From contig NZ_CP152412.1 of NCBI RefSeq assembly GCF_038957035.1, positions 1,980,501-2,044,500 on the forward strand: a DNA stretch of 64,000 bases, read 5' to 3'. Every line of letters starts with the position of its first letter. Positions within the stretch are counted from its first letter, which is position 1. Below are positions 197 through 15,383 of this stretch, in pieces. The position numbers and the translations under genes were made by a program. The notes under the pieces were generated by a model, which was given only the letters and a program-made list of their open reading frames with translations, was not told where the DNA came from and made no database searches. Source of the stretch: Bradyrhizobium sp. B097 (GTDB taxonomy: Bacteria > Pseudomonadota > Alphaproteobacteria > Rhizobiales > Xanthobacteraceae).

Positions 197-1789
197 TCAG
201 CGCCTCCTGGTGCCGAAGACGGAAGAGAAGCGGGTCGCGCCGTGCGACGGCGCGCTCGGTCGCGCCGAGGGAGGCGACGGTGGCGGCGAGGAGGGCGGCG
301 GTGGTGGCGGCTCGCGGGTCGCGGCCGGCGCGCGGTCATATGTCGTGCGCTGCTGGACCGGTGCGGCCGCCGGTGCATGCGATTCCCGCGGCGTCAGCGG
401 CACGGCGGCACGGATCCCGCCACCATCCTTGCGCGACGACATCCGCTTGAACTCATCACGGATCGGCCATTTCGCTTTCTCGGCTGCGACCTGCACGCAC
501 TCGATCAGCGCCGTGTTCTTGGCCTCGCGGCGGTGCGCCTTCATGTCGCCGTCGCGATACGCATTGAGGATCCGGAACTCCATCGGGTCCATGCCGACCA
601 GATGGGCGAGCTTGTCCATCTGGCATTCGATGGCGAAATCCATCGCCGTGACGCCGAAGCCGCGCATCGCGGTGGCGGGCGTGCGGTTGGTGAAGACGCA
701 GTAGACGTCGCCATGGACGTTCGGGATCGTGTACGGGCCAGGCAGATGCGCAGCGCATTTCACCGCGGCATAGCTCGACAGCCGCGTATAGGCGCCGCTG
801 TCGAAATAGGCGCGCACCTTGCGGGCGACGACGCGGCCGTCGCGCATCACGCCATCCTTGATGTAGATGCGCTCGGCGCCGCGCGGGGGGCCGTACTGCA
901 TCTCCTCTTCGCGCCCGAACACGTAGCGCACCGGCCGCCCGGTCAGCATCGCGCCGAGGATGCAGAGCGGCTCGGTCAGGGTATCGACCTTGCCGCCGAA
1001 GCCGCCGCCGACCGTGCCGCCGATGAAGTGGAAGGTGTTGGAGGGTACATCGAGGATCTTGGCGCAGGTGTCGACCGAGAAAAACAGCGCCTGCGTCGAG
1101 GTGTAGACGATGTAGCGGCCGTTGGTGTCGGGCGCTGCGATCGAGCCGTTGGTTTCGGTCGGCGCATGCTCGATCGGCGACATCTGGTAGCGCTGCTCCA
1201 GCACATGGTCGGCCGTGGCAAGCGCCCGGTCGGCGTCGCCGAAGCGCAGCTGCTGGCGATCATAGGTCTCGTGATAGGTGAAGGTGTTCTTGGGGTAGAC
1301 CTCGTTGACCACGGGCGCGCCGGGCTTCAGTGCCTCCTCGACGTCGAATACCGCCGGCAGCGGCTCGTAGTCGATCTTGACCTTGGCGATGGCCTCAAAG
1401 GCTTCGCGCGGGCTGTCGGCGACGATGGCGACGATCGGCTCGCCCTTGTAGCGCACCTTGTCGACCGCGAGCGACGGCTCGTCGTCCTTGCCGAAATTGA
1501 TCAGGCTGAGCAGCGTGTTCAGGTTGCGAGGCACGTCGGAGGCGCGGATCACGCGCCGCACCCCTGGCGACCGCTCGGCCTCCGAGGTGTCGATGCGCCG
1601 CAATCGTGCATGGGAATGCGCGCTGCGGACCACCTTCAGGTGCAACATGCCCTGCAGCTTGTGGTCGTCGAAATAGGGCGAGGTGCCGGTGACATGGCCG
1701 AGCATGTCCTGGCGCTGCGTGCCCTTGCCGATCTCCTTCAGGTTGTCGTCGCGCTCGTCGGCGAAGAGGTCCTTGCGCAATTCCAGCAT
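197..1789 (-). CDS. Molybdenum hydroxylase large subunit, N-terminal ORF (CoxL/XdhB family)
   Basis: This 530-residue protein covers the aldehyde oxidase/xanthine dehydrogenase a/b hammerhead domain (about 20-140) and the first molybdopterin-binding domain (about 160-440). GGGFGGK is at 261-267 and RGFG at 376-379. Family members are usually 750-790 residues in one chain. Here the similarity stops near residue 455 and is replaced by a proline-rich tail (about 481-515) ending in SVFGTRRR, after which the rest resumes in a new ORF two bases downstream. It follows the FAD and 2Fe-2S subunits, so the complex is a complete three-cofactor hydroxylase. The substrate is unknown. The split could be a real two-chain subunit or an ancient frameshift fixed with a new start; the good Shine-Dalgarno favours the former. 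Confidence 0.85.
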   Translation of the reverse strand: MLELRKDLFADERDDNLKEIGKGTQRQDMLGHVTGTSPYFDDHKLQGMLHLKVVRSAHSHARLRRIDTSEAERSPGVRRVIRASDVPRNLNTLLSLINFGKDDEPSLAVDKVRYKGEPIVAIVADSPREAFEAIAKVKIDYEPLPAVFDVEEALKPGAPVVNEVYPKNTFTYHETYDRQQLRFGDADRALATADHVLEQRYQMSPIEHAPTETNGSIAAPDTNGRYIVYTSTQALFFSVDTCAKILDVPSNTFHFIGGTVGGGFGGKVDTLTEPLCILGAMLTGRPVRYVFGREEEMQYGPPRGAERIYIKDGVMRDGRVVARKVRAYFDSGAYTRLSSYAAVKCAAHLPGPYTIPNVHGDVYCVFTNRTPATAMRGFGVTAMDFAIECQMDKLAHLVGMDPMEFRILNAYRDGDMKAHRREAKNTALIECVQVAAEKAKWPIRDEFKRMSSRKDGGGIRAAVPLTPRESHAPAAAPVQQRTTYDRAPAATREPPPPPPSSPPPSPPSARPSAPSHGATRFSSVFGTRRR

Positions 1790-1801: not shown

Positions 1802-2281
1802 TTACGCGCGGGCCCGGCCGCCGGAAGCGGCTGCCAGCACGGCGTTGATGATCGGCTCGTAGCCGGTGCAGCGGCAGATGTTGCCAGAGATCGCCTCGAC
1901 GACCTCGGCGCGGCTCGGTTGCGGATTACGGTCGAGCAGCGCCTTGGCGGCCATCAGCATGCCCGGCGTGCAGTAGCCGCACTGCGCGGCGAAATTGTCG
2001 GCAAAGGCGCGTTGCAGCGGGTGCAGATTGGGACCGTCCTTGATGCCGTCGAGCGTCTCGACCGAGCGGCCGGCGACGGTTTCGGCGAGCGTCAGGCAGG
2101 AGAGATGCAGCTCACCATCGATCAGCACGCTGCAGGTGCCGCAGCCGCCCTGACCGCAACCGAATTTCGGCGTCATGTCGCCGATCAGCTCACGCAGCGC
2201 GACCAAAAGGTTGGTGCCGCCGTCGACGAAGATCGCGACGTCACGGCCGTTGTGTTGAAACTGGAGAGGGGTCTTGGCCAT
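1802..2281 (-). CDS. (2Fe-2S)-binding small subunit of molybdenum hydroxylase
   Basis: This is a 159-residue CoxS/XdhC-type electron-transfer subunit. The N-terminal plant-ferredoxin-like cluster uses Cys42, 47, 50 and 62 (CGQGGCGTC then SC), and the C-terminal helical domain holds the second cluster through Cys101, 104, 136 and 138 (CGYC and CRC). All eight ligands are present and the length is normal. It carries electrons from the molybdopterin subunit to the FAD subunit in the cytoplasm. It sits 6 nt after the FAD subunit gene and 12 nt before the large-subunit gene, so the three are one operon. Confidence 0.95.
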   Translation of the reverse strand: MAKTPLQFQHNGRDVAIFVDGGTNLLVALRELIGDMTPKFGCGQGGCGTCSVLIDGELHLSCLTLAETVAGRSVETLDGIKDGPNLHPLQRAFADNFAAQCGYCTPGMLMAAKALLDRNPQPSRAEVVEAISGNICRCTGYEPIINAVLAAASGGRARA

Positions 2282-2287
2282 GACGAT

Positions 2288-3106
2288 CTATTCCTGACCG
2301 GACAACAGGCGCCTGAGATGCACGCCGACGATCTCGCGGCGATACCAGGCGCTGGCGAGCGCATTGTCGCCGGGCGAAGTTCCTTCGACCGCTGCCGCGG
2401 CAGCCGCATTGATCGTGGAGGCGTCGAGCGCGCGCCCTTCCAGCGCGCGCTCGGCAGCGCGGGCGCGGATCGGCGTCGGCGCCATCGACCCGAGCGCGAC
2501 GCGGGCGCCGACGATGCGGCTGCCGTTGACCGGCAGATGGGCCGCGAGCGTGATCACCGCGCCGCCCTTGGGCTTGATCCGCGCGATCTTGCGGTAACGG
2601 AAGGCGTCAGCGCTGCCGGGCTTGGCAAGGGAGATCGCGAGCACCAGCGTGCCGGCCTGACGGTCGCGCGATTGCAGGAATTCCTCGATTCCGATCTCGC
2701 GGCCGCCGAGGCCGCCCTGCACCGACACGACGGCATCGAGCGCGAGCATGGCGACCGTGAAATCGCCATATGGCACCGGCGCGAACAGATTGCCGCCGAC
2801 CGTGCCCATGTTGCGCACCGCCGGTCCGCCGATCGAGCGGGCGGGGGCGTGCAGGAAGCCGAGATCGCGCTCGGCCAGGATGCGCGCGAAGGTGACGCCG
2901 GCGCCGAGCGTGATGCGCGAGGCGGAGGCGTCGATCCGCCTCATCGCTTGGTCGCTGGCGCGCACGACGGTCGAGATCGAGATGTCGCCCTCGTTCAGCG
3001 CCCGCATCACCAGCGTGCCGCCGCCGAGATAGCGCGCGCCCCGATCCGACGACAGCGCCGCCGCGGCCTCGTTGGTGCTGGTGAAGGTCTTCACCGTGAC
3101 TGGCAT
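2288..3106 (-). CDS. FAD-binding medium subunit of molybdenum hydroxylase (CoxM family)
   Basis: This 272-residue protein is the flavin subunit. The two FAD-contact loops are visible: GGGT at 28-31 and the IGGPAVRNMGTVGGN segment at 92-106. The C-terminal CO-dehydrogenase flavoprotein domain follows (about 165-270). It passes electrons from the iron-sulfur subunit to an acceptor such as a quinone or oxygen. It is first of the three enzyme subunits and lies 15 nt after the SRPBCC gene, the order seen in many CoxMSL-type clusters. The length is normal. Confidence 0.93.
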   Translation of the reverse strand: MPVTVKTFTSTNEAAAALSSDRGARYLGGGTLVMRALNEGDISISTVVRASDQAMRRIDASASRITLGAGVTFARILAERDLGFLHAPARSIGGPAVRNMGTVGGNLFAPVPYGDFTVAMLALDAVVSVQGGLGGREIGIEEFLQSRDRQAGTLVLAISLAKPGSADAFRYRKIARIKPKGGAVITLAAHLPVNGSRIVGARVALGSMAPTPIRARAAERALEGRALDASTINAAAAAAVEGTSPGDNALASAWYRREIVGVHLRRLLSGQE

Positions 3107-3121
3107 GATGTCCTACCCCGC

Positions 3122-3565
3122 TTACGCGGCCTCCTTCAGATGCCGGCGGATGGCGTCGAAGCCGGCCTGGTAGATGTCTTCCGAAACCATGTGCGTGATG
3201 CGGTCCGTGTCCTCGGTCCGCGTCATGAAGCGCGACTCCCAGTGCCAGAACGTGCGGTCGCCGTCGGTCACCGGCAGCAGGCGGACATGCGCCACGTAGT
3301 TGAACATCGGGACCGGCGTATCGAGCAGGCAGTAGCTGAAGCTCTGCTCCAGGTCGGACAGCGCGAGCAACTGCTCGCGCAGCTCGGAGCCGTCCTTCAG
3401 CTTGAAGCGCCTGACGCAGCCGATCTTGTCGGACGGCTGCGCGCGCTCGATGCCGCTGGTCGCCACCGCCGGGTGCCAGCGGTCATGGCCGTTGAAATCG
3501 CGCAGCACGGCCCACACCGTATCGGTCGGCGCATCCAGGATCGTGCTTTTGACGATATGCGGCAC
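3122..3565 (-). CDS. SRPBCC-family protein (first of a tandem pair)
   Basis: I start this gene at GTG 3565 (147 residues), because the open frame upstream is only an intergenic repeat and this start matches the N-terminus of its neighbour. It has the START/SRPBCC fold signature, with an N-terminal strand (PHIVKSTILDAP), a DFNGHDRWHP helix region and a C-terminal long helix. It is clearly a paralogue of the protein at 3782-4219: both share PSDKIGCVR and LPVTDGD/LTPVTDGD blocks. SRPBCC (CoxG-like) proteins often accompany CoxMSL enzymes, where some are membrane-association or maturation factors. Here it could also bind a hydrophobic substrate. The exact role is unknown. Confidence 0.82.
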   Translation of the reverse strand: MPHIVKSTILDAPTDTVWAVLRDFNGHDRWHPAVATSGIERAQPSDKIGCVRRFKLKDGSELREQLLALSDLEQSFSYCLLDTPVPMFNYVAHVRLLPVTDGDRTFWHWESRFMTRTEDTDRITHMVSEDIYQAGFDAIRRHLKEAA

Positions 3566-3611
3566 GGCTAGCGTCCAATGTCTATCGTTTGCATCGATGT
3601 GGCCGCGTGCA

Positions 3612-3745
3612 CCACCTCTCCCCAACGGGGAGAGGTCGCGCCGAAGGCGCGGGTGAGGGGGCGCAGGTCCCTCGATAGACCGCAACCCCTCACCCGGATC
3701 CCATCTCGCGATGCGATCCGACCTCTCCCACAGGGGGAGAGGTGG
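3612..3745. repeat. Intergenic inverted repeat, CCTCTCCC family, copy 1
   Basis: The spacer between the two SRPBCC genes is an imperfect palindrome. It begins with ACCTCTCCCC and ends with GGGGGAGAGGT, and both halves carry secondary arms (GGTGAGGGG and CCCCTCACCC). It is a diverged relative of the elements at 29765, 33493, 40586 and 51506. It explains the spurious open frames through this spacer and could fold as a strong RNA hairpin between co-transcribed genes. Confidence 0.75.
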
Positions 3746-3781: not shown

Positions 3782-4219
3782 TTACCCCCCGAACGCCCGC
3801 TTCAGCGCGTCGAATCCACCCTGGAACACGCCGCCGCCGATATTGTTGACAAGCTCGGTCTCGCGCTCCGGCGCGCAGTCGAACTCGGCGGTCCACTCCA
3901 TGAACGTCTGGTCGCCATCGGTGACCGGTGTCAGCCGCAGCGTCGCGACGTAGTTCTCGACGCCCATCGGGGATTCCAGGATCGAGTAGGTGCAGAACAT
4001 GTCGTAGTCGGACAGGCCGAGCAGCTTCTCGCGGATACGATCGCCGTTGCGCAGTCGGAAATCCCTGACGCAGCCGATCTTGTCCGAGGGCTCGCCGCCC
4101 TCGATCCGGCTCTCCGCGATCGCGGGATGCCAGTTCGGCAAGCCATTGAAATCGCGCACCCGGGCCCAGACCCGGTCGTTGCGGGCGTTGACGACGGTGG
4201 AGACGTAAACCCGTGCCAT
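3782..4219 (-). CDS. SRPBCC-family protein (second of a tandem pair)
   Basis: This 145-residue protein has a compact START/SRPBCC fold: VYVSTVVNA at the N-terminus, DFNGLPNWHP near 23, PSDKIGCVRDF near 47, and a C-terminal helix ending in DALKRAFGG. It is of the polyketide-cyclase/dehydrase type that binds hydrophobic ligands. It resembles the SRPBCC protein immediately downstream along its full length, so the pair arose by tandem duplication. It sits 9 nt after the flotillin gene and belongs to the same transcription unit. Function is inferred only from fold and neighbourhood. Confidence 0.85.
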   Translation of the reverse strand: MARVYVSTVVNARNDRVWARVRDFNGLPNWHPAIAESRIEGGEPSDKIGCVRDFRLRNGDRIREKLLGLSDYDMFCTYSILESPMGVENYVATLRLTPVTDGDQTFMEWTAEFDCAPERETELVNNIGGGVFQGGFDALKRAFGG

Positions 4220-4228
4220 GTTGCGAGC

Positions 4229-7120
4229 TCAGTCCTTCTTGCGCGGCGCGCGTTCGGGGCGGGGTTCGCCGCCGCCTTCGGGCGCTGCCGGCTTGGCCTC
4301 ACCGCCGCTCTTGCGTGCGCTCTCCTTGATGCCTTGCATGTCCCGGGCCTCGCGGATCAGGCCGGGCATCTTGGCGAGGCTGCCGCCCTCGACGCCGATG
4401 TCCGAGAGGATCGAGTCGATCAGCGGCGCCTGCACGCGGTAGCGCAGCGCCGAGTCGATCACCTCGTCGGTGGCGCTGCGGCCGGAACCGCCGCCATTGC
4501 CATTGCCATTGAGCCCGTCGACCTGGAGGATGCGGATGCCCTCGATCTTCTCCATCGGCTTGACGCTCTCGCGCACGATGCCCTCGATCCGGTCGAGCAG
4601 CTTGCGGCGGAACAGCGAGTAGCGGGCCTGGTCGGTCAGCACGTTCTCGGCCTCGTTGAGCAGGCGCTGCGCCTCGGCCTCGACCGTGGCACGGACACGT
4701 TCGGCGCCGGCCGCGATCCTGGTTTCCTCGGCCTGCTTCTCGGCGAGCAGCACCTCGACGGTCTTGCGCCGCTTGGCGATCTCGCTCTCGCGCGCGGTAA
4801 CGACGCGCTCGGCCGCTTCGGTGGCGTGGACCCTGGCGTCCTCGGCGGCGGCGCGCGCCGCGGATTCCTCCAGCGACTTCTGGTGCAGCGCGATGGCCTT
4901 CTCCATCAGCGCGGTTTCGACGTCCTTCTCCCGGTTCACCTCGAGCTTGCGCAGCTCGCGCTCGCGGCCGACCCTCGCCTCGTCGAGGCCGCGGTCGGAG
5001 GCGATGCGGGCGCGCTCGACCTCTTCACGCGCGGCGATCTCAGCTTCTTGCAGCGATTGATTGCGGGCGACCTCGAGTTGCTCGATCGAACGGCGCCGTT
5101 CGATCCGCGCCGCCTCCAGCGCCTGCTCGCGGGTCACGTCGGTTGTTTCGACCTCCTTGCGGGCCGTGATCTCGGCCTGCTTGACCTGCCGGTCGGCGTC
5201 GATCCGTTCCGAGCGCTTGGCGGCGAGCGCGATCACGCGCTCCTCGTCGGCGAGCTCGATCGCCCGTTTCTGGTCGATGTTGAGCACCTCGCGGGTCTTG
5301 GAGGAGGTGATCCGCTCGCTCTCCAGCGCCAGCTCGACATCGATCCGCTGCCGCTCGACCGCGTCACGGCGCTTCAACTCGGCGGCCTCGATGGCTCCCG
5401 TGCGCTCGATCTCGAGCGCGCGGGTCTCGCGCTCAGCGCGGATGCGCTGCGCGGCGACCGACTTCTCCTGCGAAATGCGTGCCGCCTCGATCGATTCGCG
5501 CGAGGCGATGTCGGCCTCCTCGATCGCGCGGGTGCGGGCGATCTCCAGGGAGCGTACGTGTTCCTCCTGTGCGATCCGCGACGCCTCGGTGGCGTCGCGC
5601 GCGGTGATCCCGGCGATCTCGATCGCCTGGTTGCGTTCGATCTCGAGCTTGCGCGTGGTGTGATCGGCGGCGATGCGCTCGGCCGCCAGCGTCTTTTCTC
5701 TGATGATCCGAGCGGCTTCGACCGACTTCTGCGCCTCGATCTCGGCTTCCTGGATGGTGCGGACTTGCTGGATTTCCAGCGCGCGGGTGCGCTCGTCGGA
5801 GGAGATGCGCTCGACATTGACCGTCATGGTCTGGGCGATGCGCGCCTTTTCGGTGGCCTCGCGAGCCGCGATTTCGGCTTCTTCGACCGCGCGGGTGCGC
5901 TCGATCTCGCGCCGCCGAGTCTCTTCCTCATTGGCGATGCGGGCATCGGTGACGACGCGATCCTGCTGGATGCGGGCCTTTTCGATCGACTCGCGGGCCG
6001 CGATCTCGGCCTCCTCGACGGTGCGCATCCGCTCGATCTCGCGCTGGCGGACCTCGCGTTCGGAAGCGATGCGCGTGGTGTCGACCGAGCGCTGGTTGGC
6101 GATCCTGGCCTTCTCGATCTCTTCGCGCGCCAGCAATTCCCGTTCTTCCACCGCGCGGGTGCGCTCGATCTCCCGGTGCCGGGTCTCGCGTTCCGACGCG
6201 ATCCGGGCTTCGGTGATCGCCTGCTCGTTGGCGATGCGTGCCTTCTCGATGGCTTCGCGCGCGGTGATCTGGGCCTGCTCGGCCTCGGTCTCGCGCAGCG
6301 CGCGTTCACGTGCGACTTCGGTGCGCTGCAGGGCGCGGCGCATCTCGATGTCGCGCTCCTGCTCGAGGCGGGCGGTCTCGCTCTCGCGCTCGATGTCCAG
6401 CGCCTGCCGCTCGGCCTCCAGGTTGCGGGAGCGGATCTTGATCATCGAGTCTTGCTCGATGTCGTTGCGCAGCTTGCGCTTGGCCTCGATGTCCTCCATC
6501 AGCCGGGTCAGGCCTTCGGCGTCGAAGCGGTTCGAGGGGTTGAAGTATTCGAGGTCGGTCTGGTCGAGATCGGTGATCGCAACCGATTCCAGTTCGAGGC
6601 CGTTTTGCGCCAGCGCTTCGGCGGCATTGGCCTTGACGCGGGAGACATATTCGCCGCGCTGCTCGTGCATCTGCTCCATCGTCATCTCGGAAGCAACGGA
6701 GCGGATCGCGGAAATGAACTTGCCGGAGAGCAGGGTGTGCAGCTGCTCGGGCTCCATGGTGCGGCGGCCGAGCGTAGCGGCGGCGATCGAGACGGCCTCG
6801 CGGGTCGCCTGCACCCGGACGTAGAAATCGGCCTCGATGTCGACGCGCATGCGGTCGCGGGTGATCACCGCATCCTGCCTGGAGCGCACGATCCCCATCG
6901 GCAGCACGTTCATGTTGACCGGCGTGTAGTCGTGGATGAACGGCAGCACGAAGGCGCCGTCATTGATCACCACGCGTTCGCCGAGGAAACCGGTCCGGAC
7001 GAAGGAGGTTTCCTTCGATGAGCGGTGGTAAAGCCAGTTCACCACATAGACGATGATGACGATCGCGACGATTGCGACGATGAGCCAGAGGATCAATTCA
7101 CCGACCAGCATCCCTGACAT
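4229..7120 (-). CDS. Flotillin/SPFH-domain protein with very long hendecad coiled coil
   Basis: This is a 963-residue membrane protein. Residues 8-31 form one N-terminal transmembrane helix, an SPFH/band-7 domain spans about 38-215, and residues 220-830 are an uninterrupted Glu/Arg/Ala-rich helix. From 316 the helix is built of 44-residue repeats starting REIER or LEIER (316, 360, 404, 448), one 33-residue unit at 492, then 44-residue units at 525 and 569, with another 44-residue unit later. The units are 4 or 3 times 11 residues. The tail is a Gly-rich linker (near 875) and a short basic end. YqiK/flotillin proteins normally have 450-700 residues. Such proteins form ring or cage microdomains in the inner membrane. 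It follows the ABC/Tm-1 genes and precedes the SRPBCC/hydroxylase genes, so it may scaffold them. Confidence 0.9.
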   Translation of the reverse strand: MSGMLVGELILWLIVAIVAIVIIVYVVNWLYHRSSKETSFVRTGFLGERVVINDGAFVLPFIHDYTPVNMNVLPMGIVRSRQDAVITRDRMRVDIEADFYVRVQATREAVSIAAATLGRRTMEPEQLHTLLSGKFISAIRSVASEMTMEQMHEQRGEYVSRVKANAAEALAQNGLELESVAITDLDQTDLEYFNPSNRFDAEGLTRLMEDIEAKRKLRNDIEQDSMIKIRSRNLEAERQALDIERESETARLEQERDIEMRRALQRTEVARERALRETEAEQAQITAREAIEKARIANEQAITEARIASERETRHREIERTRAVEERELLAREEIEKARIANQRSVDTTRIASEREVRQREIERMRTVEEAEIAARESIEKARIQQDRVVTDARIANEEETRRREIERTRAVEEAEIAAREATEKARIAQTMTVNVERISSDERTRALEIQQVRTIQEAEIEAQKSVEAARIIREKTLAAERIAADHTTRKLEIERNQAIEIAGITARDATEASRIAQEEHVRSLEIARTRAIEEADIASRESIEAARISQEKSVAAQRIRAERETRALEIERTGAIEAAELKRRDAVERQRIDVELALESERITSSKTREVLNIDQKRAIELADEERVIALAAKRSERIDADRQVKQAEITARKEVETTDVTREQALEAARIERRRSIEQLEVARNQSLQEAEIAAREEVERARIASDRGLDEARVGRERELRKLEVNREKDVETALMEKAIALHQKSLEESAARAAAEDARVHATEAAERVVTARESEIAKRRKTVEVLLAEKQAEETRIAAGAERVRATVEAEAQRLLNEAENVLTDQARYSLFRRKLLDRIEGIVRESVKPMEKIEGIRILQVDGLNGNGNGGGSGRSATDEVIDSALRYRVQAPLIDSILSDIGVEGGSLAKMPGLIREARDMQGIKESARKSGGEAKPAAPEGGGEPRPERAPRKKD

Positions 7121-7144: not shown

Positions 7145-7978
7145 CTAGCGCGCGCCGATCGCCTTGAACTTGCGAACCTGATCCGTCAGCGCCCGCTCGA
7201 TCGGCAAGCGCTCCATCGAGGAGGCACCGTAGAAGCCGTGGCAGTTGCGGGTCTGCTTCATGATGAAATCGGCATCCGCGGGGTCCGCGATCGGACCGCC
7301 ATGCGCGAGCACGATGATGTTCGAGTTGACGCTGAGCGCGGCCTCGGCCCAGGCCTCGATCCGGACGGGGCAGTCGGCGAGCTTCAGCGCGGTCTGCGCG
7401 CCGATCGTGCCACCCATCGTCAGCCCCATGTGACAGACGATGATGTCGGCGCCTGCGATCGCCATCGCGGTCGCCTCCTGCTCGCTGAACACATAGGGCG
7501 TGGTCAACATGTTCTTGTCATGCGCCTTTGCGATCATGTCGATCTCGAGCGCATAGGACATCCCGGTCTCTTCGAGATTGGCGCGGAAGGTGCCGTCGAT
7601 CAGGCCGACGGTCGGGAAGTTCTGCACGCCGGCAAAGCCTATCGCCTTCAACTGGTCGAGGAACACATCCATGTCGCGGAACGGATCGGTGCCGTTGACC
7701 CCGGCGAGCACCGGCGTCTTGGTCACGACCGGCAACACCTCGCCGGCCATCTCGACGACGATGGCGTTGGCATCGCCATAAGGCATCAGGCCGGCGAGCG
7801 AGCCGCGGCCGGCCATGCGGTAGCGGCCGGAATTGTAGATCACGATCAGGTCGACGCCGCCGGCCTCCTCGCATTTCGCCGACAGACCTGTGCCGGCGCC
7901 GCCGCCGACGATCGGCTCGCCGCGTGCGATCATGGCGTGAAATTTTTTCAACAGCGCAGAGCGTTCAAACCTGGGCAT
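7145..7978 (-). CDS. TIM-barrel PEP-hydrolase-family protein (Tm-1 C-terminal-half homologue)
   Basis: This 277-residue protein belongs to the phosphoenolpyruvate hydrolase-like TIM-barrel family. Recognisable blocks are [15 protein letters not shown] near 27, [12 protein letters not shown] near 49, AGVNGTDPF near 92, [11 protein letters not shown] near 181 and [12 protein letters not shown] near 250. Its partner UPF0261 domain is encoded directly upstream, with only 3 nt between the genes. In the plant antiviral protein Tm-1 the same two domains are joined in one polypeptide, so the pair forms a bacterial two-gene equivalent. The reaction catalysed by this family is not established to my knowledge, and a lyase/aldol-type reaction on a small carbonyl acid is only a guess from the fold. 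Confidence 0.88.
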
Positions 7979-7981
7979 GGG

Positions 7982-10192
7982 TCACCTCGCCACTCTCCGC
8001 CGGCCACCGGCGCGTCCGAGCAGCGGACGGAACGCGCTGACGATGGCGGCCGTGAACTCGGGATCGTTGATGTTGCGCTTGATGCGGATGATCTGCCGGT
8101 TGCCGGTCTGGCGCACGGTCTGCTCCAGCGCGCGGAACAGCGTCGTGTCGGCATCGGGGTCCCAGAACGGCTGGCCGGGCGCATCGAGCGCGGAAACGCC
8201 GCCTTCGGCCAGGAAGAAGCGCACCGGCCCGTCCATCTGGTTGAGACGTTCGCCGATCCAGCGGCCCATCCGCTCGTTCTCTTCCGGCGTGGTCCGCATC
8301 AAAGTGACCTGCGGATTGTGGACGTGGAATTTGCGCTGCCGGTAGCGCTCCGGAATGGTGTCGGGTGCGCCGAAATTCACCATATCCAGCGCGCCGACCG
8401 AGCCGACATAGGGCACGCGGCTGCGGATGATGGCGCCGAAGCGGTCGTCGGTCGCCGGGAACACGCCGCCCATCAGGAGGTCGCAGACCTCTGTCGTTGT
8501 GAGGTCGATGACCCCCGCGAGCTGGCCGGATTCGACGAGCTTCTCCATCGAGCGGCCACCGACCCCGGTGGCGTGGAACACGAGGCACTCGAAATCTTCG
8601 CGGAGGTCAGCCGCGATCTTCTGCACGGCCGGCGTGGTGACGCCGAACATGGTGATGCCGATGGCCGGAAGATGAGCGCCGGTATCGCGTGGCTTTCCGG
8701 TCTGTCCCTCGTGCCGCGCCTTGACCATGCCGACCATGGCATGGGCGCCGTTGCCGAGCACCGTGCGCGAAATCGAGTTGAGACCCTGCACGTCGGTCAC
8801 CGAATACATCATGGTGATGTCGGCGGGACCGACATAGGGACCGACGTCGCCGGACGCGACCGAGGAGATGATGAGCTTCGGCACGCCGATCGGAAGCGCG
8901 CGCATGCCCGGCGCGACCAGCGACGCGCCGCCCGAGCCGCCGGCGGAGATGATGCCGGCGACATTGCCCTGGCGGCGCAGCCACCGCTCGAACGCGTCCG
9001 CCATCGCGGTCACCGAGGCGCCGCGATCGGTGCCGAACACGCCTGAGCCGCCACGGCCGTGGTTGAGGGCAATCTCCTGCGCGGTGACGTCGCAGCTCGC
9101 CGCCTTGCCGCTGGTCGAGACGTCGACCAGCCGGGTGCGCAGGCCGCTGGCCGCGATGAGATCGCGGATGAAGCGCAGCTCAGCGCCCTTGGTGTCGAGC
9201 GTGCCGACGACCAGCACGACGGGAGGCCCCGATGTCCTCGACGTCGTCGGTTCGCGCCGCGTACGGGTTGCTTCCTCGAGCCGCGTGACGGCGACGGACT
9301 GCGTCCGCGCGGCGGCCTCGATACGGGCGATCGGCACCGGCTGCGACCAGCGCGTCGGCAGCACGGGATTGGAGACGTAGATGCGAGCCGGACCCTTGCG
9401 GTCCGGCTGCGGTGTGCCGGCCGCCTCAGCTCTTGCCGGCGCCGTCTCGGCATCGATCTCGTCAGCGCCGTGGGTGCCGACGCCGAGCAGCCGCTGCTGC
9501 AGTTCGCGGTCGGTCGCAAGCCGCGCGGAGTCGATGATGCGGTTGATTCGGCCATTGACCATGATGGCGACGTTGCGCGACACCGCCGTCGCGACGCCGA
9601 TGTTCTGCTCGATGACCAGGATGGACATGTCGCCTTCGTCACCGAGGCGGAGCAGCATCTCCTCGACTTGCGCGACGATCACAGGCGCGAGGCCCTCGGT
9701 CGGCTCGTCCATGATCAGCAGCTGCGGGTTGGTCAGCAATGCGCGCGAGATCGCGAGCATCTGCTGCTCGCCGCCGGAGAGCTGGTTGCCGCCGTTGTTC
9801 TTGCGTTCGGCGAGGCGCGGGAAGGTGTCGTAGATGCGCTCGATGGTCCAGGCGCCGCGCCGCAGGCCGCCGGCGAGCGCAAGGTGTTCGTCGACCGTCA
9901 GCGAACGCCACAGCCGCCGGCCCTGCGGCACGTAGCCGACGCCGAGCCGTGCGATCCGCGCCGGATTCAGCCGCGTGACTTCCTCGCCGCGAATCCGGAT
10001 CGAGCCGCTGCTGGCGCGAACCAGGCCCATGATGGCCTTGCACAGCGTGGTCTTGCCCATGCCGTTGCGGCCGACCACCGAGAACACGCCGGCATCGAGC
10101 GTGAGGTCGACGCCCTGCAGTGCATGCGAATGCCCGTAATAGACGTCGAGGCCCTTCACCTCGAGTGCGGGAACTGGGCGGCGTTCATTCAT
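7982..10192 (-). CDS. LivF-type ABC ATPase fused to Tm-1-like (UPF0261) domain
   Basis: This 736-residue fusion has a complete branched-chain amino acid-type ATPase in residues 1-240: Walker A GRNGMGKTT at 41-49, signature LSGGEQQ at 138-144, and Walker B LLIMDEP at 158-164. A low-complexity linker covers about 241-323. Residues 324-725 are a Tm-1-like ATP-binding/UPF0261 domain starting with VVGTLDTKGAE and containing a long Gly-rich segment (SAGGSGGASL) and GVIDLTTTEVCD. Both parts are normally separate proteins. The gene overlaps livG by 8 nt and is 3 nt from the TIM-barrel gene. The fusion ties import of the substrate physically to the Tm-1-type module. There is no frameshift; one reading frame covers everything. 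Confidence 0.92.
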   Translation of the reverse strand: MNERRPVPALEVKGLDVYYGHSHALQGVDLTLDAGVFSVVGRNGMGKTTLCKAIMGLVRASSGSIRIRGEEVTRLNPARIARLGVGYVPQGRRLWRSLTVDEHLALAGGLRRGAWTIERIYDTFPRLAERKNNGGNQLSGGEQQMLAISRALLTNPQLLIMDEPTEGLAPVIVAQVEEMLLRLGDEGDMSILVIEQNIGVATAVSRNVAIMVNGRINRIIDSARLATDRELQQRLLGVGTHGADEIDAETAPARAEAAGTPQPDRKGPARIYVSNPVLPTRWSQPVPIARIEAAARTQSVAVTRLEEATRTRREPTTSRTSGPPVVLVVGTLDTKGAELRFIRDLIAASGLRTRLVDVSTSGKAASCDVTAQEIALNHGRGGSGVFGTDRGASVTAMADAFERWLRRQGNVAGIISAGGSGGASLVAPGMRALPIGVPKLIISSVASGDVGPYVGPADITMMYSVTDVQGLNSISRTVLGNGAHAMVGMVKARHEGQTGKPRDTGAHLPAIGITMFGVTTPAVQKIAADLREDFECLVFHATGVGGRSMEKLVESGQLAGVIDLTTTEVCDLLMGGVFPATDDRFGAIIRSRVPYVGSVGALDMVNFGAPDTIPERYRQRKFHVHNPQVTLMRTTPEENERMGRWIGERLNQMDGPVRFFLAEGGVSALDAPGQPFWDPDADTTLFRALEQTVRQTGNRQIIRIKRNINDPEFTAAIVSAFRPLLGRAGGRRRVAR

Positions 10193-10967
10193 GGCCGCCT
10201 CCGAGATAAAGCTCCTGCACCTCGGGATCGGACTCGATTTCGCGCGGCAGGCCCTCCTTGAAGATGCGGCCGTTGTGCATCATCGTCACGCTCTCGACGA
10301 CGCGCAGCGCAACATCCATGTCGTGCTCGATGATGATGTAGCCGATATGCGCAGGCAGCGAGGTCAGGATCTCGATCAGCTCGCGCCGCTCGGTTGGCGA
10401 CAGTCCGGCCGCCGGCTCGTCGAACAGGATGAAGCGCGGCGCGCCGGCCAGCGCCAGCGCGATCTCGAGCTGGCGCTGCTGGCCATGCGCCAGCTCGGCA
10501 ACGCGCTGGTCCTTGACGCCGGCAAGGTGCACGGCCTGCACCAGCGTTTCGGTCGCGTGCGTCAGCGCATCGTTCTGCCCCGCGCGCAGCAACGAGAACC
10601 GCCCGCGCGAGACGCCGCGGCAGGCGAGATAGACGTTGTCCTGCACGGTGAGGCCGGGGAACAGCGCCGAGATCTGGTAGGTGCGGCGCAAGCCCCGGCG
10701 AATGCGCTCATAGGGCGGGAACTGGGTGATGTCCTCGCCGAAGAAGCGGATCGTGCCGGAGGAGGGCGGGAAGTCGCCGGTGATGCAGTTGAACAGCGTC
10801 GTCTTGCCGGCGCCGTTGGAGCCGAGCACCGCGCGGCGTTCGCCGGGGCGCACGGTGATGGTGACGTCGGTCAGCGCAGCCAGCGCACCGAACAGCCGGG
10901 TCACGCCGCGCAGCTCCAGCGCCGCGCCGGCGCCGACCACGGACAGTCGCTGCGCGACGCTATCCAT
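10185..10967 (-). CDS. Branched-chain amino acid-type ABC transporter ATPase (LivG)
   Basis: I choose ATG 10967 (260 residues), which has GGAGG 5 nt upstream; a GTG 12 nt earlier is less likely. With this start Walker A (GSNGAGKTT) is at about 49-57. The signature reads LAHGQQRQ, a LivG-like variation of LSGGQ, and Walker B is FILFDEP with a LivG-typical AAGLSPTE D-loop. It powers the LivHM permease from the cytoplasmic face together with the LivF part of the downstream fusion. It overlaps livM and the fusion gene by 8 nt each, showing translational coupling. Confidence 0.92.
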   Translation of the reverse strand: MDSVAQRLSVVGAGAALELRGVTRLFGALAALTDVTITVRPGERRAVLGSNGAGKTTLFNCITGDFPPSSGTIRFFGEDITQFPPYERIRRGLRRTYQISALFPGLTVQDNVYLACRGVSRGRFSLLRAGQNDALTHATETLVQAVHLAGVKDQRVAELAHGQQRQLEIALALAGAPRFILFDEPAAGLSPTERRELIEILTSLPAHIGYIIIEHDMDVALRVVESVTMMHNGRIFKEGLPREIESDPEVQELYLGGGHE

Positions 10968-12042
10968 GGCGGCCTCCACCCGGACGTTGCGTCGTGGATG
11001 CGCTACGCCGCCAGCGGTCCCAGAGCCCGATCACGCCGTCCGACGACCAGAACACGATGGCGAGGAACCCGAGCCCGATCAATAGCCGGAAGCGGTTGCC
11101 GTCGAGCCCGAACTTGATCAGGACGTCGAGCGCGAAGGTGCGCAGCAGGACGAAGATTAGCGCACCGATGAACGGGCCGATCGGCCGGGTGATGCCGCCG
11201 ACCACGGCGATGATCAGGACGTCGATGCAGGCGCCGACGCTGACCGAGCCCGGCGAGATCTGCCGGTAGTTCCAGACTTGCAGCACGCCGCCGAGCGCGG
11301 CGATGAAGGCGGCGAAGGCGTAGGCGGCGATGCGGTGGGCATTGGGATTGAAGCCGAGTGCGGCCATGCGGCGGGGGTTGTCGCGGACGCCTTGCAGCGC
11401 GAGGCCGAAAGGGGCGCGAGAGACATACTGGACGGCGAAGTAGCAGATCGCGGCGACGCCGAGCGTCACATAGTAGAAGGCGATGTCGGCACGCCAGTCG
11501 ACGCCCCAGAAATGCGGCGTCGCGACGGTGTTGATGCCGGTATGGCCGTTGAAGATCGCCCAGTTCTGGTTGGTGAAGTAGTAGAACGCTGCGCCGATCG
11601 CCAGCGTGATCATGATGGTGTAGATGCCTTCGGTGCGCACCGCGAGCGCGCCGCCGAGTGTGCCGAACAGCGTCGCCAGCGCCAGCGCCATCGGGGTCGC
11701 GAGCCACCACGGCCAGCCCAGGCTGATATTGGCGTTGCCGCTCATGCCGAACACCGCGACCATGTAGCCGGCGAAGCCCGCGATGGTGAGCTGCATCAGG
11801 CTGACCATGCCGCCATAGCCGGCGAGGAACATCAGGCTCAGCGCGATGACGCCGAGGATCAGCGTGGTGGCGAAGATCTCGATCAGGAAGAAGCCGTTGG
11901 CGATCAGCGGCATGATCACGAGGATCAGCGCGACCAGCCAGGCCGCCGGGTTCTGGAATTCCGGCCAGGCGCGGATCAACGCGCGGCGGGTCGCGTTGGC
12001 GGACGGGTCGGGGCGGAACTGGGTGCTCTGCAGCAACGACAT
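10960..12042 (-). CDS. Branched-chain amino acid-type ABC permease (LivM)
   Basis: This 360-residue inner-membrane permease starts with a cytoplasmic tail (about 1-35) and then carries roughly eight to nine hydrophobic helices. The LivM hallmark GYGGMVSLMQLTIAGF segment lies near 75-90 and the GGITRPIGPFIGA coupling region near 280. It pairs with LivH to form the channel. The start lies 1 nt after the livH stop, and the end overlaps livG, so livH-livM-livG-livF is a tight operon. The substrate cannot be told from the sequence; this superfamily also imports aromatic acids, urea and amides. Confidence 0.92.
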   Translation of the reverse strand: MSLLQSTQFRPDPSANATRRALIRAWPEFQNPAAWLVALILVIMPLIANGFFLIEIFATTLILGVIALSLMFLAGYGGMVSLMQLTIAGFAGYMVAVFGMSGNANISLGWPWWLATPMALALATLFGTLGGALAVRTEGIYTIMITLAIGAAFYYFTNQNWAIFNGHTGINTVATPHFWGVDWRADIAFYYVTLGVAAICYFAVQYVSRAPFGLALQGVRDNPRRMAALGFNPNAHRIAAYAFAAFIAALGGVLQVWNYRQISPGSVSVGACIDVLIIAVVGGITRPIGPFIGALIFVLLRTFALDVLIKFGLDGNRFRLLIGLGFLAIVFWSSDGVIGLWDRWRRSASTTQRPGGGRHG

Positions 12043-12043
12043 C

Positions 12044-13054
12044 TCATCGCCTCGCGAGCAGGCCCTGCGGCCGCAGCGCCAGCACCACGACCATGATCAG
12101 GAAGGTGACGACGATGGCGTAGGTCGGGATGTAGACCGAGCCGAGCTGCTCGGCGAGGCCGATGATGACGGCGCCGAGCGCAGCCCCCGGGATCGAGCCC
12201 ATGCCGCCGACGATCACGACCACGAGGGAGGCGAGCAGGAAGCGTGTATCCTCGCCCGGCGACAGCGACTGGAAGGTGCCGCCGACGACGCCGGCGATGC
12301 CGGCGAGCCCTGCGCCGAGCGCGAACACCAGCACGAAGACGAGCTGGATCGGCACCCCGGTCGCGGCCAGGATGTCGCGGTCGTCGACCCCGGCGCGCAC
12401 GATCATGCCGATCCGCGTGCGGTTGAGCGCCAGCCACATCGCGATGCCGATCACGACGGAGGCCGCGAAGATCACCAGCCGCACCAGCGGATATTGCAGA
12501 TAGACCGGCTCGCCCGATGATTTGATCGCTGTGAGCAGTGGCAGCTGCACCGGGCCGATCAGCCAACTCGGGGTCTGCACCTGGTAGAAGTCGCCGCCGA
12601 ATACCCAGAGCATCAGATCGGCGAACACGATCGAGAGCCCGATCGTGACCATGGTTTGCCGCAGATCCTGCCCCTCCATGCGGCGGAACACCGCGAGCTG
12701 CAGGATCACGCCGACCAGCGCCGCCGCGATGAAGGCGACGATGAAGGACAGGATCCACGACCCGGTCCAGGTGCTGATGGCGTAGCCGATATAGCCGCCG
12801 AACAGATAGAGCGAGCCGTGCGCGAGGTTGACGTTGCGCATGAGGCCGAAGATCAGCGTGAAGCCGCTCGCGACCAGGAAATACAGCCCGCCGAGCGTGA
12901 TGCCGTTCAGCACCGCGTTGAGGAACACGCGCTTGCGGCCGATCGCGGCTTCCAGCCCCGACGGCCAGATCGCGAACACCAGCCACAGCAGCACCGCGAC
13001 CGCAATGATCACGATCAGCGCCCAGGCCGGATGGCGTTCGATGAACCTGGCCAT
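12044..13054 (-). CDS. Branched-chain amino acid-type ABC permease (LivH)
   Basis: This 336-residue permease has the LivH pattern: a first helix (about 12-32), NAVLNGITLGGLYFLVASGFTL near 45-67, then NLAHGSLYLFGGYIGY near 75, and the conserved GGMGSIPGAALGA coupling loop near 285. It forms the membrane channel with LivM. It is preceded by an AraC regulator with about 120 nt of spacer, so a promoter may lie at 13055-13175. The length is slightly above that of E. coli LivH because of an N-terminal extension. Confidence 0.92.
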   Translation of the reverse strand: MARFIERHPAWALIVIIAVAVLLWLVFAIWPSGLEAAIGRKRVFLNAVLNGITLGGLYFLVASGFTLIFGLMRNVNLAHGSLYLFGGYIGYAISTWTGSWILSFIVAFIAAALVGVILQLAVFRRMEGQDLRQTMVTIGLSIVFADLMLWVFGGDFYQVQTPSWLIGPVQLPLLTAIKSSGEPVYLQYPLVRLVIFAASVVIGIAMWLALNRTRIGMIVRAGVDDRDILAATGVPIQLVFVLVFALGAGLAGIAGVVGGTFQSLSPGEDTRFLLASLVVVIVGGMGSIPGAALGAVIIGLAEQLGSVYIPTYAIVVTFLIMVVVLALRPQGLLARR

Positions 13055-13175: not shown

Positions 13176-13994
13176 TCACGGCCGCAACACCTTGGCGGCG
13201 CGGCGATAGTCGGTCGGGGCCATGCCGACATTGGCGGCGAAGAAGCGGGTGAAGCCGCTCTGCGAGGAGAAGCCGAGATCGAAGCCGATATCGGCGATCG
13301 GCGCTTCCGTCGCCACCAGCGCATCCAGCGCCTGCTCCATGATCAGCGTGTTCATGTAGAGGTGAGGGGTGACGCCGGTCTGGGTGCGGAACAGCCGGTA
13401 GAAATGCGGCCGCGACAATCCCGCTTCGCGTGCGATCGCATCGAGCTCGATCTCGGCGCCGGGGCTTTCCGACATCAGCTTGATCGATTTGCGGACCCGG
13501 AAATCGGTCACCGCGGCGGCGGCGGGCGCGTCCTGCGCGGCCTGCCAGCTCTCCTCGTAGCAGGAATCGATCAATTGCCTGAGCTCGCAATCGAGGCTGC
13601 GCAGCGACGGCGCGCCGCACACCAGTGCTGCGGTGCGGCGGATCAGCCGGTCGAGCGCCTCGGTGCGGGGAAAGAAGGTGCGGCCGAACCGCAGGCCCTG
13701 CGCGCTCGCGGGCTGCGGCGCGAACCATTCGGCATTGACATAGAGCACGAAGAAGATCGCGCCGTGGTCCATGTCGGTCGGCAGAAAATTGTGCGGTTCC
13801 CACGGGTTGACCGCAACCACGGTGTCGTCCTTGAGCAGCAGGCGCTGCTCGGAGACATCGATCTGCGCCGGCGTTCCGCCGACGTGAAAGATCAGGTGCC
13901 CTTCGCGGTGCGCATGCACGTTGAAGGGACGGTTCAACTGATAGACCGTCGCGCGACCGAACCGGCCGTGGAAGACGGCAAGCGCCCTGCTCAT
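13176..13994 (-). CDS. AraC-family transcriptional regulator
   Basis: This 272-residue regulator has an N-terminal cupin-type AraC ligand domain (about 10-150; HAHREGHLIFH and NPWEPHNF supply the His-rich strands). A C-terminal double helix-turn-helix (about 170-270) contains AGLSRPHFYRLFR and IADIGFDLGFSSQSGFTRFFAAN. It lies in the same direction between the solute-binding protein gene and livH, inside the transport cluster, so it is probably the local regulator. The ligand may be the imported compound or a product of the Mo-hydroxylase. There is no sign of damage. Confidence 0.9.
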   Translation of the reverse strand: MSRALAVFHGRFGRATVYQLNRPFNVHAHREGHLIFHVGGTPAQIDVSEQRLLLKDDTVVAVNPWEPHNFLPTDMDHGAIFFVLYVNAEWFAPQPASAQGLRFGRTFFPRTEALDRLIRRTAALVCGAPSLRSLDCELRQLIDSCYEESWQAAQDAPAAAAVTDFRVRKSIKLMSESPGAEIELDAIAREAGLSRPHFYRLFRTQTGVTPHLYMNTLIMEQALDALVATEAPIADIGFDLGFSSQSGFTRFFAANVGMAPTDYRRAAKVLRP

Positions 13995-14132: not shown

Positions 14133-15383
14133 TCAGTACTTCTTGCACTCCGGGACCGTGCGGCTCGGCAGGCCGATCTTGGCGAACACCGCCGGATCGT
14201 AGCCCAGCGTCTGGTTGACGTTCGGGATCACCTTCACGACCTTGCTGAACAGCGCGCCCTTGCCGTCGTCGACCACCTCGGTGACGAAATTGGTGCCGAT
14301 CGCCTGGCGGTTGGCGTCGAGCTTGATCTTGCCGTTCGGGGCGTCGATCTCGATCTTCGCCAGTGCGTCCTTGAGCTTGGCCTGGTTGTTGGAGAGATCG
14401 CCATTGACCTGCCGCAGCGCCAGGATCAACGCCATGGTCGAGCCGTAATAGTTGGTGGCGAGCAGCGACGGGCTCGGGAAGCGTTTGCTCTCCGGGAACG
14501 AGTCCTGATAGGCCTTCACGAACTTCTGCCAGCCCGGATCCTCCCAGGTATCGGCCTGGCCGCTCGCGGCGATGGTGCCGATCAGCGCGTTCTTGGCGCT
14601 GCCCTTCGACGACAGGATGGTCTGGTCGATCATGATCGAGCCGCCCATCAGATGCGCCTTGCCGCCGGCCTGCTGATACTGGTTGAGGAAGTTGACGGCG
14701 TCGGCGCCGCCGAGGCCGAGATAGATCGCATCGACATCGTCGGGCAGTGCTGCGATCACGGAGGCGAAGTCCTTGGTGCCGAGCGGCACCCATTGCCGGT
14801 TGGTGACCTGGCCGCCGGCGCCGCAGAACTCGAGCACGAGGCCGAACACCTGGGTGTAGATGAACGAGTAATCCTCGCCGACGGTCGCGATCTTGCGATA
14901 GCCCTTGGTCTCATAGGCATACTTGCCGAGGCCGACCTGCCACTGCGCGCCGTCCATGTTGTAGCGGAAGAAGTTCGGCGCCGGGTCGACGTAGGTCGTC
15001 TCCTGCGCGCCGGAGGCGGCGTTGACGAAGGTCAGCTCCGGATGGGTCTTGGCAAAATTCTTCACCGCGATGCCCTCGTCGCCGGACAGCGGCGACAGCA
15101 GGATCTGCACCTTGTCCTGCTCGATCAGCTTGCGCACCGCACGCACCGCGGAGTCCGGCGTCGCGTCGGTCGAGGCGACGACGAATTCGAGCTCCTTGTC
15201 GCCGATCTTCTTGCCGAGCACGTTGAGCGCGGTCTGGTGGCCGCGCATGCCATCCTCGCCGAGCACCGTATAGGTGCCTTCGAGCGTCGCGGTGACGCCG
15301 ACCTTGATCTTCTCCTGGGCGAGCGCCGTGCCCGAAAGCAACAGGCTGCTCAACGCAATCAGTCCCAAACTGCCTTTCAACAT
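14133..15383 (-). CDS. ABC transporter periplasmic substrate-binding protein (LivJ/amide-binding type)
   Basis: This 416-residue protein begins with a signal peptide (about 1-22, LLLSGTALAQ then EKIKVG). It continues as a type-I periplasmic binding protein with EGTYTVLGEDGMRG near 34, LLSPLSGDEG near 94 and the AYETKGYRKIATVGEDYSF segment near 155. GGAGG lies close upstream of the ATG. It delivers the substrate to LivHM. Comparable proteins bind branched-chain amino acids, amides, urea or aromatic acids; the pocket residues cannot be assigned by eye. It is the first gene of the cluster, which fits a promoter in 15384-15480. Confidence 0.92.
   Translation of the reverse strand: MLKGSLGLIALSSLLLSGTALAQEKIKVGVTATLEGTYTVLGEDGMRGHQTALNVLGKKIGDKELEFVVASTDATPDSAVRAVRKLIEQDKVQILLSPLSGDEGIAVKNFAKTHPELTFVNAASGAQETTYVDPAPNFFRYNMDGAQWQVGLGKYAYETKGYRKIATVGEDYSFIYTQVFGLVLEFCGAGGQVTNRQWVPLGTKDFASVIAALPDDVDAIYLGLGGADAVNFLNQYQQAGGKAHLMGGSIMIDQTILSSKGSAKNALIGTIAASGQADTWEDPGWQKFVKAYQDSFPESKRFPSPSLLATNYYGSTMALILALRQVNGDLSNNQAKLKDALAKIEIDAPNGKIKLDANRQAIGTNFVTEVVDDGKGALFSKVVKVIPNVNQTLGYDPAVFAKIGLPSRTVPECKKY

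Follow-up and report, generated by a model that had tools for sequence, protein, structure and literature searches.

A 64,000-nucleotide stretch of the Bradyrhizobium sp. B097 genome (contig NZ_CP152412.1, forward-strand positions 1,980,501 to 2,044,500; hereafter the window) encodes a single protein in which the LivF-type ATPase of an ATP-binding cassette (ABC) importer is joined through a linker to a UPF0261 domain, the family of the N-terminal half of the plant antiviral protein Tm-1. The gene for the other Tm-1 family, the PEP_hydrolase TIM barrel, lies immediately downstream, and an operon of approximately 20 genes surrounds the two. The fusion is real, widespread and strongly conserved: its domains, gene content and gene order recur, it has a single origin, its linker carries one conserved motif, and it is associated with a flotillin gene. 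We postulate, with moderate confidence, that these genes encode an ABC importer with a built-in, tethered kinase, which would phosphorylate the substrate on entry and pass the product to the TIM-barrel enzyme.

The fusion, its origin and its linker

The fused open reading frame (ORF) runs from 10192 to 7982 on the minus strand, begins with ATG and encodes 736 residues. Its stop ends at 7982 and is followed by CCC and then, at 7978, by the ATG of the PEP_hydrolase ORF (7978-7145, minus strand, 277 residues); inspection of the letters thus confirmed the 3-nt gap described in an earlier note on this DNA. The parts of the two genes are:

9473..10192, minus strand: LivF-type ABC ATPase half of the fusion, residues 1-240 (ABC_tran, 101 bits; motifs intact)
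9221..9472, minus strand: linker, approximately residues 241-324 (27 fused linkers compared, 67-211 residues)
9302..9385, minus strand: conserved linker stretch RIYVSNPVLPTRWSQPVPIARIEAAART, residues 270-297 (letters checked; core TRWS at 9344-9355)
8024..9220, minus strand: UPF0261 N- and C-terminal domains, residues 325-723, family of the Tm-1 N-terminal half, putative kinase
7145..7978, minus strand: PEP_hydrolase (PF09370) TIM barrel, family of the Tm-1 C-terminal half

The Pfam matches agree with these ORF coordinates and bear out the architecture that the earlier note had read from the letters, including its equation of the two families with the two halves of Tm-1. The fused protein matches ABC_tran at residues 25-165 (101 bits), the UPF0261 N-terminal family at 325-494 (203 bits) and UPF0261_C at 509-723 (304 bits), the latter two (PF06792 and PF23189) against curated cut-offs of 27 bits each, and the downstream protein matches PF09370 at residues 9-274 with 433 bits (cut-off 33.8), spanning profile positions 2-267 of 267. 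Walker A (GRNGMGKT), signature (LSGGEQQM) and Walker B (LLIMDEP) motifs of the ATPase are intact. By sequence, the closest solved structures are 1ji0 for the N-terminal half (166.7 bits; titled just 'ABC transporter'), Tm-1 (332.7 bits) and 9mpy (193.8 bits) for the C-terminal half, and Mll9387, 2p10 (399.1 bits), for the downstream protein.

The earlier note had also raised the suspicion of a frameshift in the linker. In the 80 named loci inspected, which are the best of 562 confirmed and nearly all Bradyrhizobium, LivF reads through into UPF0261 without a break in 79, the remaining locus having a run of Ns in its linker, and fused loci come from 21 families. A frameshift or assembly artefact is thereby ruled out, and we regard it as vanishingly improbable. 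An identical interruption, on contigs of equal length (7,515,445), occurs in L081 and in G045 (L164); because the gap in L081 is a run of Ns, neither was scored as a split gene.

The frequency of the LivF fusion, which the earlier note had left to be counted, was assessed in 100 genomes, the source genome included: a single full-length match is present in 46 of the 60 that belong to the genus and in 7 of the 40 from elsewhere in the order, and two further matches are broken by a gap or contig ends. Across the class, sampled evenly with 385 genomes, UPF0261 occurs in 50, and in 19 of these it lies in an open frame of at least 765 residues; the 17 of these long-frame loci that were retrieved all continue from LivF without a stop, the other two being the source genome and G020. 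PEP_hydrolase exceeds its cut-off in 38 genomes of the class sample, all of which also have UPF0261, and UPF0261 stands without it in 12 genomes, one (G438) owing to a contig end; two genomes have weak PEP_hydrolase matches only. UPF0261 was found in 38 of 398 genomes sampled across the phylum, 14 of them with an open frame of more than 700 residues, all in the window's class (LivF was inspected in 4 of the 14); no fusion-sized frame appeared outside Alphaproteobacteria in this sample, where the five UPF0261 genomes outside the class all have frames of at most 468 residues. A record titled Frankia sp. RB7 (L103), whose PEP_hydrolase is 88% identical to that of Bradyrhizobium, is possibly mislabelled.

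A UPF0261 tree of 53 rows places all 26 fused ones, which represent 21 families, on one side of one branch (support 97/96), and no unfused row stands among them. Two loci, L143 and L152, have livF and the UPF0261 gene adjacent yet separate, and in a LivF/LivG tree of 36 rows their LivF proteins cluster with those of 22 fused loci (support 98/98), separate from 8 further LivF rows. Based on these groupings, the importer was probably part of the module before a single fusion of the genes took place, and the tie to import proposed in the earlier note is plausible. L143 and L152 are not the nearest relatives of the fused rows in the UPF0261 tree, and divergent rows are less securely placed because of the long branches in both trees.

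The linker had been described as low-complexity, which is correct for its edges and incorrect for its middle, where the conserved stretch RIYVSNPVLPTRWSQPVPIARIEAAART lies. The 27 fused linkers compared align poorly and are divergent apart from one motif region: RW[SGT] is present in 27/27 and TRW[SGT] in 24/27, compared with a mean of 0.65 and a maximum of 5 for RW[SGT] in 2000 runs of a shuffled-linker control. Among the 80 named loci, a script recognised 78 linkers, of which 75 carry TRWS, two TRWT and one NRWS, and no RW motif was found at the ends of 8 unfused LivF proteins examined. Common descent explains part of this conservation, yet the motif persists amid changed surroundings. The 211-residue linker of L132 (5253-3414) contains degenerate RTGEAFDRTGRADE-type repeats and a short stretch of unknown residues.

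Flotillin follows the fusion closely. It was detected in 24 of 25 fused loci, the exception (L136) stopping at a contig edge, and with L121 and the window included it is present in 26/26 complete fused loci; at E 1e-4 it was detected in 0/23 unfused loci, some of which are cut short. Relatives of the first of two SRPBCC proteins of the operon (SRPBCC1) occur in 24 of 25 fused loci versus 11 of 23 unfused ones (L121 counted as fused).

UPF0261 as a putative kinase family

The earlier note had held the original enzymatic role of the Tm-1 families to be unknown, a statement that is now out of date. The UPF0261 domain shares the fold of the solved members of its family, among them PDB entry 9mpy, a UPF0261 protein (Saro_1862) with acetovanillone bound. 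A 2026 paper names MarK, from the same species as 9mpy, as a single-component kinase that starts acetovanillone catabolism. Judging from titles, species (Novosphingobium aromaticivorans), ligand and authors, MarK is probably Saro_1862 and hence the protein of 9mpy. Together, the acetovanillone complex and the cited kinase suggest that UPF0261 is a family of small-molecule kinases. No other kinase was present among the 50 structure matches listed for the UPF0261 model, 9mpy (possibly MarK) aside; the DUF1537 four-carbon acid sugar kinases, a conceivable parallel, were also absent from those 50, which does not imply their exclusion.

Across fused and unfused UPF0261 rows, 31 residues are invariant, and a DTK motif contains an invariant Asp and an invariant Lys. 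The UPF0261 part of Tm-1, 46.1% identical over 401 positions, retains 31/31 of them, whereas Saro_1862 retains 23/31, two of its 8 changes being E to D. The plant proteins (tomato Tm-1 and Tm-1-like; 3wrw, 3wry) resemble the present system in having both domain families, but there UPF0261 and the TIM barrel form one polypeptide, while here UPF0261 is carried on LivF and the barrel is a separate ORF. Saro_1862, at 406 residues, differs in having no ABC part.

The partner protein shares the fold of the PEP mutase/isocitrate lyase superfamily, and its barrel appears to show the conservation that a phosphate-binding lyase or hydrolase would be expected to have, with HGGP and GASS segments as candidate phosphate sites. 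The title of 2p10 says merely 'putative phosphonopyruvate hydrolase', and the reaction of PF09370 is only predicted. Import followed by phosphorylation and TIM-barrel chemistry has a counterpart in the Lsr autoinducer-2 system, in which ABC import is followed by trapping phosphorylation by LsrK and then by the TIM-barrel LsrF acting on the phospho-ligand. The Lsr system works alike, but there a stand-alone protein from another family serves as the kinase, and the likeness is one of analogy, not of family relation.

Operon setting

The remaining genes of the operon, listed below, include a complete HAAT (Liv-type) importer set of binding protein, two permeases and two ATPases, as identified by Pfam.

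14133..15383, minus strand: periplasmic substrate-binding protein (Peripla_BP_6, 167 bits)
13176..13994, minus strand: AraC-family regulator (HTH_18, 82.9 bits)
12044..13054, minus strand: LivH-type permease (BPD_transp_2, 115 bits)
10960..12042, minus strand: LivM-type permease (BPD_transp_2, 100 bits)
10185..10979, minus strand: LivG-type ABC ATPase (ABC_tran, 104 bits)
4229..7120, minus strand: flotillin/SPFH protein, 963 residues (Band_7 and Flot)
3782..4219, minus strand: SRPBCC protein 1 (Polyketide_cyc2, 102.8 bits)
3122..3685, minus strand: SRPBCC protein 2, true start probably near 3568 (Polyketide_cyc2, 62 bits)
2288..3106, minus strand: flavin adenine dinucleotide (FAD) subunit of a molybdenum hydroxylase (FAD_binding_5 and CO_deh_flav_C)
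1802..2281, minus strand: [2Fe-2S] subunit of the molybdenum hydroxylase (Fer2_2 and Fer2)
197..1789, minus strand: first half of a split molybdopterin subunit (MoCoBD_1 and Ald_Xan_dh_C)
Beyond the window (stretch L162, 14694-7653): second molybdopterin half (MoCoBD_2) and six genes, for a MoxR-type AAA protein, CoxE (VWA_CoxE), an amidohydrolase (Amidohydro_2), a metallo-beta-lactamase protein (Lactamase_B), a fusion of SGL and Isochorismatase, and a flavodoxin-like protein (Flavodoxin_2)

Operon maps revealed two arrangements. Type A, comprising the window and 13 others (L121 counted), has the order binding protein, AraC, LivH, LivM, LivG, fusion, PEP_hydrolase, flotillin, SRPBCC1, SRPBCC2 and the FAD, iron-sulfur and molybdenum subunits; the binding protein went undetected in L158, whose sequence stops at a contig edge. 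In nine further type A stretches, the second molybdenum half and the AAA, CoxE and Amidohydro_2 genes are present in 9/9, the SGL gene in 8/9 and the metallo-beta-lactamase gene in 7/9 (L180 stops before the last two and L173 has no metallo-beta-lactamase match), while the flavodoxin-like gene had a match in 0/9. Type B, comprising 11 loci, has the importer, fusion, PEP_hydrolase, flotillin, SRPBCC1 and an SRPBCC2. In one of its loci, L122, SRPBCC2 is joined to a zinc-type dehydrogenase and followed by an FAA hydrolase, an alpha/beta hydrolase and an amidohydrolase, and most of these have relatives in the type B loci searched besides L122. The gene order of L129 is a rearranged version, and L136 is truncated.

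A sigma-54 regulator bearing a PEP_hydrolase part is present in 6 of the 11 type B loci. The activator of L119 (11640-13469) has a PEP_hydrolase TIM barrel as its front part, perhaps an enzyme fold serving as a ligand sensor, and short proteins in loci with such regulators (L119 7058-7648, L122 3335-3622 and others) match PEP_hydrolase in its central part alone (positions 56-175 of 267 in L119).

Solved structures say little of the substrate. The best match of the binding protein, 4zpj (126.8 bits), bears the title 'Extracellular ligand-binding receptor', a name uninformative on substrate; the metallo-beta-lactamase, amidohydrolase and SGL proteins match lactonases and hydrolases of various kinds; and the best match of SRPBCC1, 2le1, is an uncharacterised protein. 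SRPBCC1 is 52.5 and 50.4% identical to SRPBCC proteins adjoining unfused pairs on Azospirillum and Terrarubrum plasmids. Identification of the molybdenum hydroxylase as a carbon monoxide dehydrogenase was set aside in view of the active-site motif of that enzyme, the examination having covered Pfam domains only.

Several further features were observed. The large molybdenum subunit is encoded by two genes of 530 and 340 residues (L162 14697-16289 and 13672-14694, the first being window 197-1789), and the halves have consecutive matches in the nine further type A stretches. At L162 8289-9860 a gluconolactonase-type (SGL) domain is joined to an isochorismatase domain, with relatives in 8/9 of those stretches. 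Elsewhere in the window, 26635-27840 encodes a 401-residue elongation factor Tu-family protein (GTP_EFTU, 175 bits), possibly a second gene copy or a paralogue. The same genome has a second, unfused UPF0261 gene (L163 9731-10993), whose neighbours, a HAD hydrolase, two class-III aminotransferases, an aldehyde dehydrogenase and a copper amine oxidase, suggest a catabolic cluster for amines or amino alcohols that includes a kinase step.

A proposed tethered kinase and its alternatives

What we infer, namely a kinase activity, its coupling to import, a docking motif, a scaffold and a class of substrate, would fit together as follows. The binding protein would capture the substrate, and the complete branched-chain-amino-acid-type importer would bring it in. 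A small-molecule kinase of MarK-like (UPF0261) type would hang from LivF by approximately 85 residues of tether, such that the imported compound would be phosphorylated at the membrane and thereby trapped. The phospho-compound would then be cleaved or rearranged by the TIM barrel that the adjoining PEP_hydrolase gene encodes, and later steps would fall to the SRPBCC proteins together with the molybdenum hydroxylase (type A) or the zinc-type dehydrogenase with FAA hydrolase (type B). The RW motif of the linker may dock something constant, and flotillin may gather importer and enzymes in one membrane patch; tether, motif and flotillin together suggest a membrane assembly. The substrate is probably plant-derived and perhaps phenolic. 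In a stronger form, which we put forward tentatively, the ABC importer would carry out group translocation: transport and phosphorylation would be physically coupled within the LivF-kinase polypeptide, with the RW motif docking it, flotillin concentrating it and the product handed straight to PEP_hydrolase.

Several points weigh against the tethered-kinase reading. The activity of every protein here is a prediction, and since the fusion, the motif and the flotillin gene were all inherited from one ancestor, they are not independent evidence. Saro_1862 differs at 8 of the 31 invariant positions and its match to the predicted model has a root-mean-square deviation of 6.7, such that the fused domain may act on another group. 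The acetovanillone pathway of N. aromaticivorans, as described, is much like the Hpe pathway and includes a carboxylase and a phosphatase; these Hpe/Acv enzymes were found in 0 of the 20 operon proteins scanned (window and L162), and acetovanillone was for this reason not adopted as the substrate of the operon. Several unfused pairs adjoin sugar ABC transporters, cupins and Gfo/Idh/MocA oxidoreductases, which is contrary to a single aromatic substrate for the family. The pairs on pNGR234a (the y4o genes) and on Mesorhizobium pMLa, for instance, share with the window neighbouring UPF0261 and PEP_hydrolase genes and ABC transporter genes in the locus, but differ in having a cupin, a Gfo/Idh/MocA protein and a sigma-54 regulator, no fusion and no flotillin match, and, on pNGR234a, a sugar-type importer. 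Finally, 6 of 120 listed UPF0261 database proteins lack ABC_tran, two starting within LivF and four within the linker; these may be shortened gene calls, real splits or internal starts. The four linker starts (P0072, P0073, P0114 and P0120), three of them at one position (V/M-RIFISNP), could reflect shortened calls or an internal start.

Such short proteins could also be a free form of UPF0261, as might be expected if the domain phosphorylated free substrate in the cytoplasm like any ordinary kinase and the joint fixed only its amount and place. The operons with the same gene order and separate genes (L143 and L152) imply that the chemistry can do without the joint. This explanation is possible, although it sits poorly with a joint that is open in every named locus but the unjudgeable one, with 26 fused tree rows on one branch without an unfused row, with a motif kept while the remainder of the linker diverges, and with a flotillin found with fused loci only. 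We consider it rather less likely that UPF0261 binds ligand or ATP to switch the importer on or off. The C-terminal domains of MalK and MetN regulate importer ATPases in this way, UPF0261 occupies the equivalent place, and the PEP_hydrolase domains fronting sigma-54 regulators in such loci suggest ligand sensing; however, the 31 invariant residues, present in the fused domain by definition and also in Tm-1, suggest retained catalysis. A different use of ATP by UPF0261, such as ligation or ATP-driven hydrolysis without a free phospho-intermediate, would accommodate the divergence of Saro_1862 at invariant positions and the lack of a kinase, a possible MarK structure aside, among the 50 listed structure matches, but acidic and basic residues are retained and the partner barrel has phosphate-site features, and we think it the least likely of these three.

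The two halves of Tm-1 were described in 2016 as separate, co-evolving bacterial genes, the pair occurring in bacteria, archaea, fungi and plants (PMC5028733); a term search of its main text returned 0 occurrences of 'ABC' or 'transporter'. Other reports describe a Brucella UPF0261 gene that scored 4 for combined attenuation when screened by signature tagging (PMC2364660) and list a UPF0261 gene as late-upregulated in brown-rot fungi (PMC6867892). No treatment of the LivF-UPF0261 fusion was recognised in literature searches, mostly judged without full text; since the architecture is recorded in public annotation, it is not unseen, just undescribed within the literature searched. New here are the single-origin fusion from a module-tied importer, the flotillin association and the linker motif; the operon with its SRPBCC proteins was absent from the earlier note.

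The system is a variant of a Liv-type importer and a UPF0261 enzyme with an unusual physical link. If the tethered-kinase reading is true, a kinase welded to an importer motor, with a docking motif and an operon flotillin, would be an uncommon coupling of transport and metabolism in one protein, and, if group translocation holds as well, it would resemble the vectorial phosphorylation of the phosphotransferase system (PTS), built on an ABC transporter by means of an enzyme pair of which plant Tm-1 is the fused relative. If UPF0261 is indeed a kinase family, Tm-1, with every invariant residue intact, is probably a functional enzyme that acquired its binding to viral proteins. The orphan pair of UPF0261 and PEP_hydrolase, known chiefly from antiviral Tm-1, would gain a concrete metabolic setting of import, phosphorylation and chemistry on a phospho-compound.

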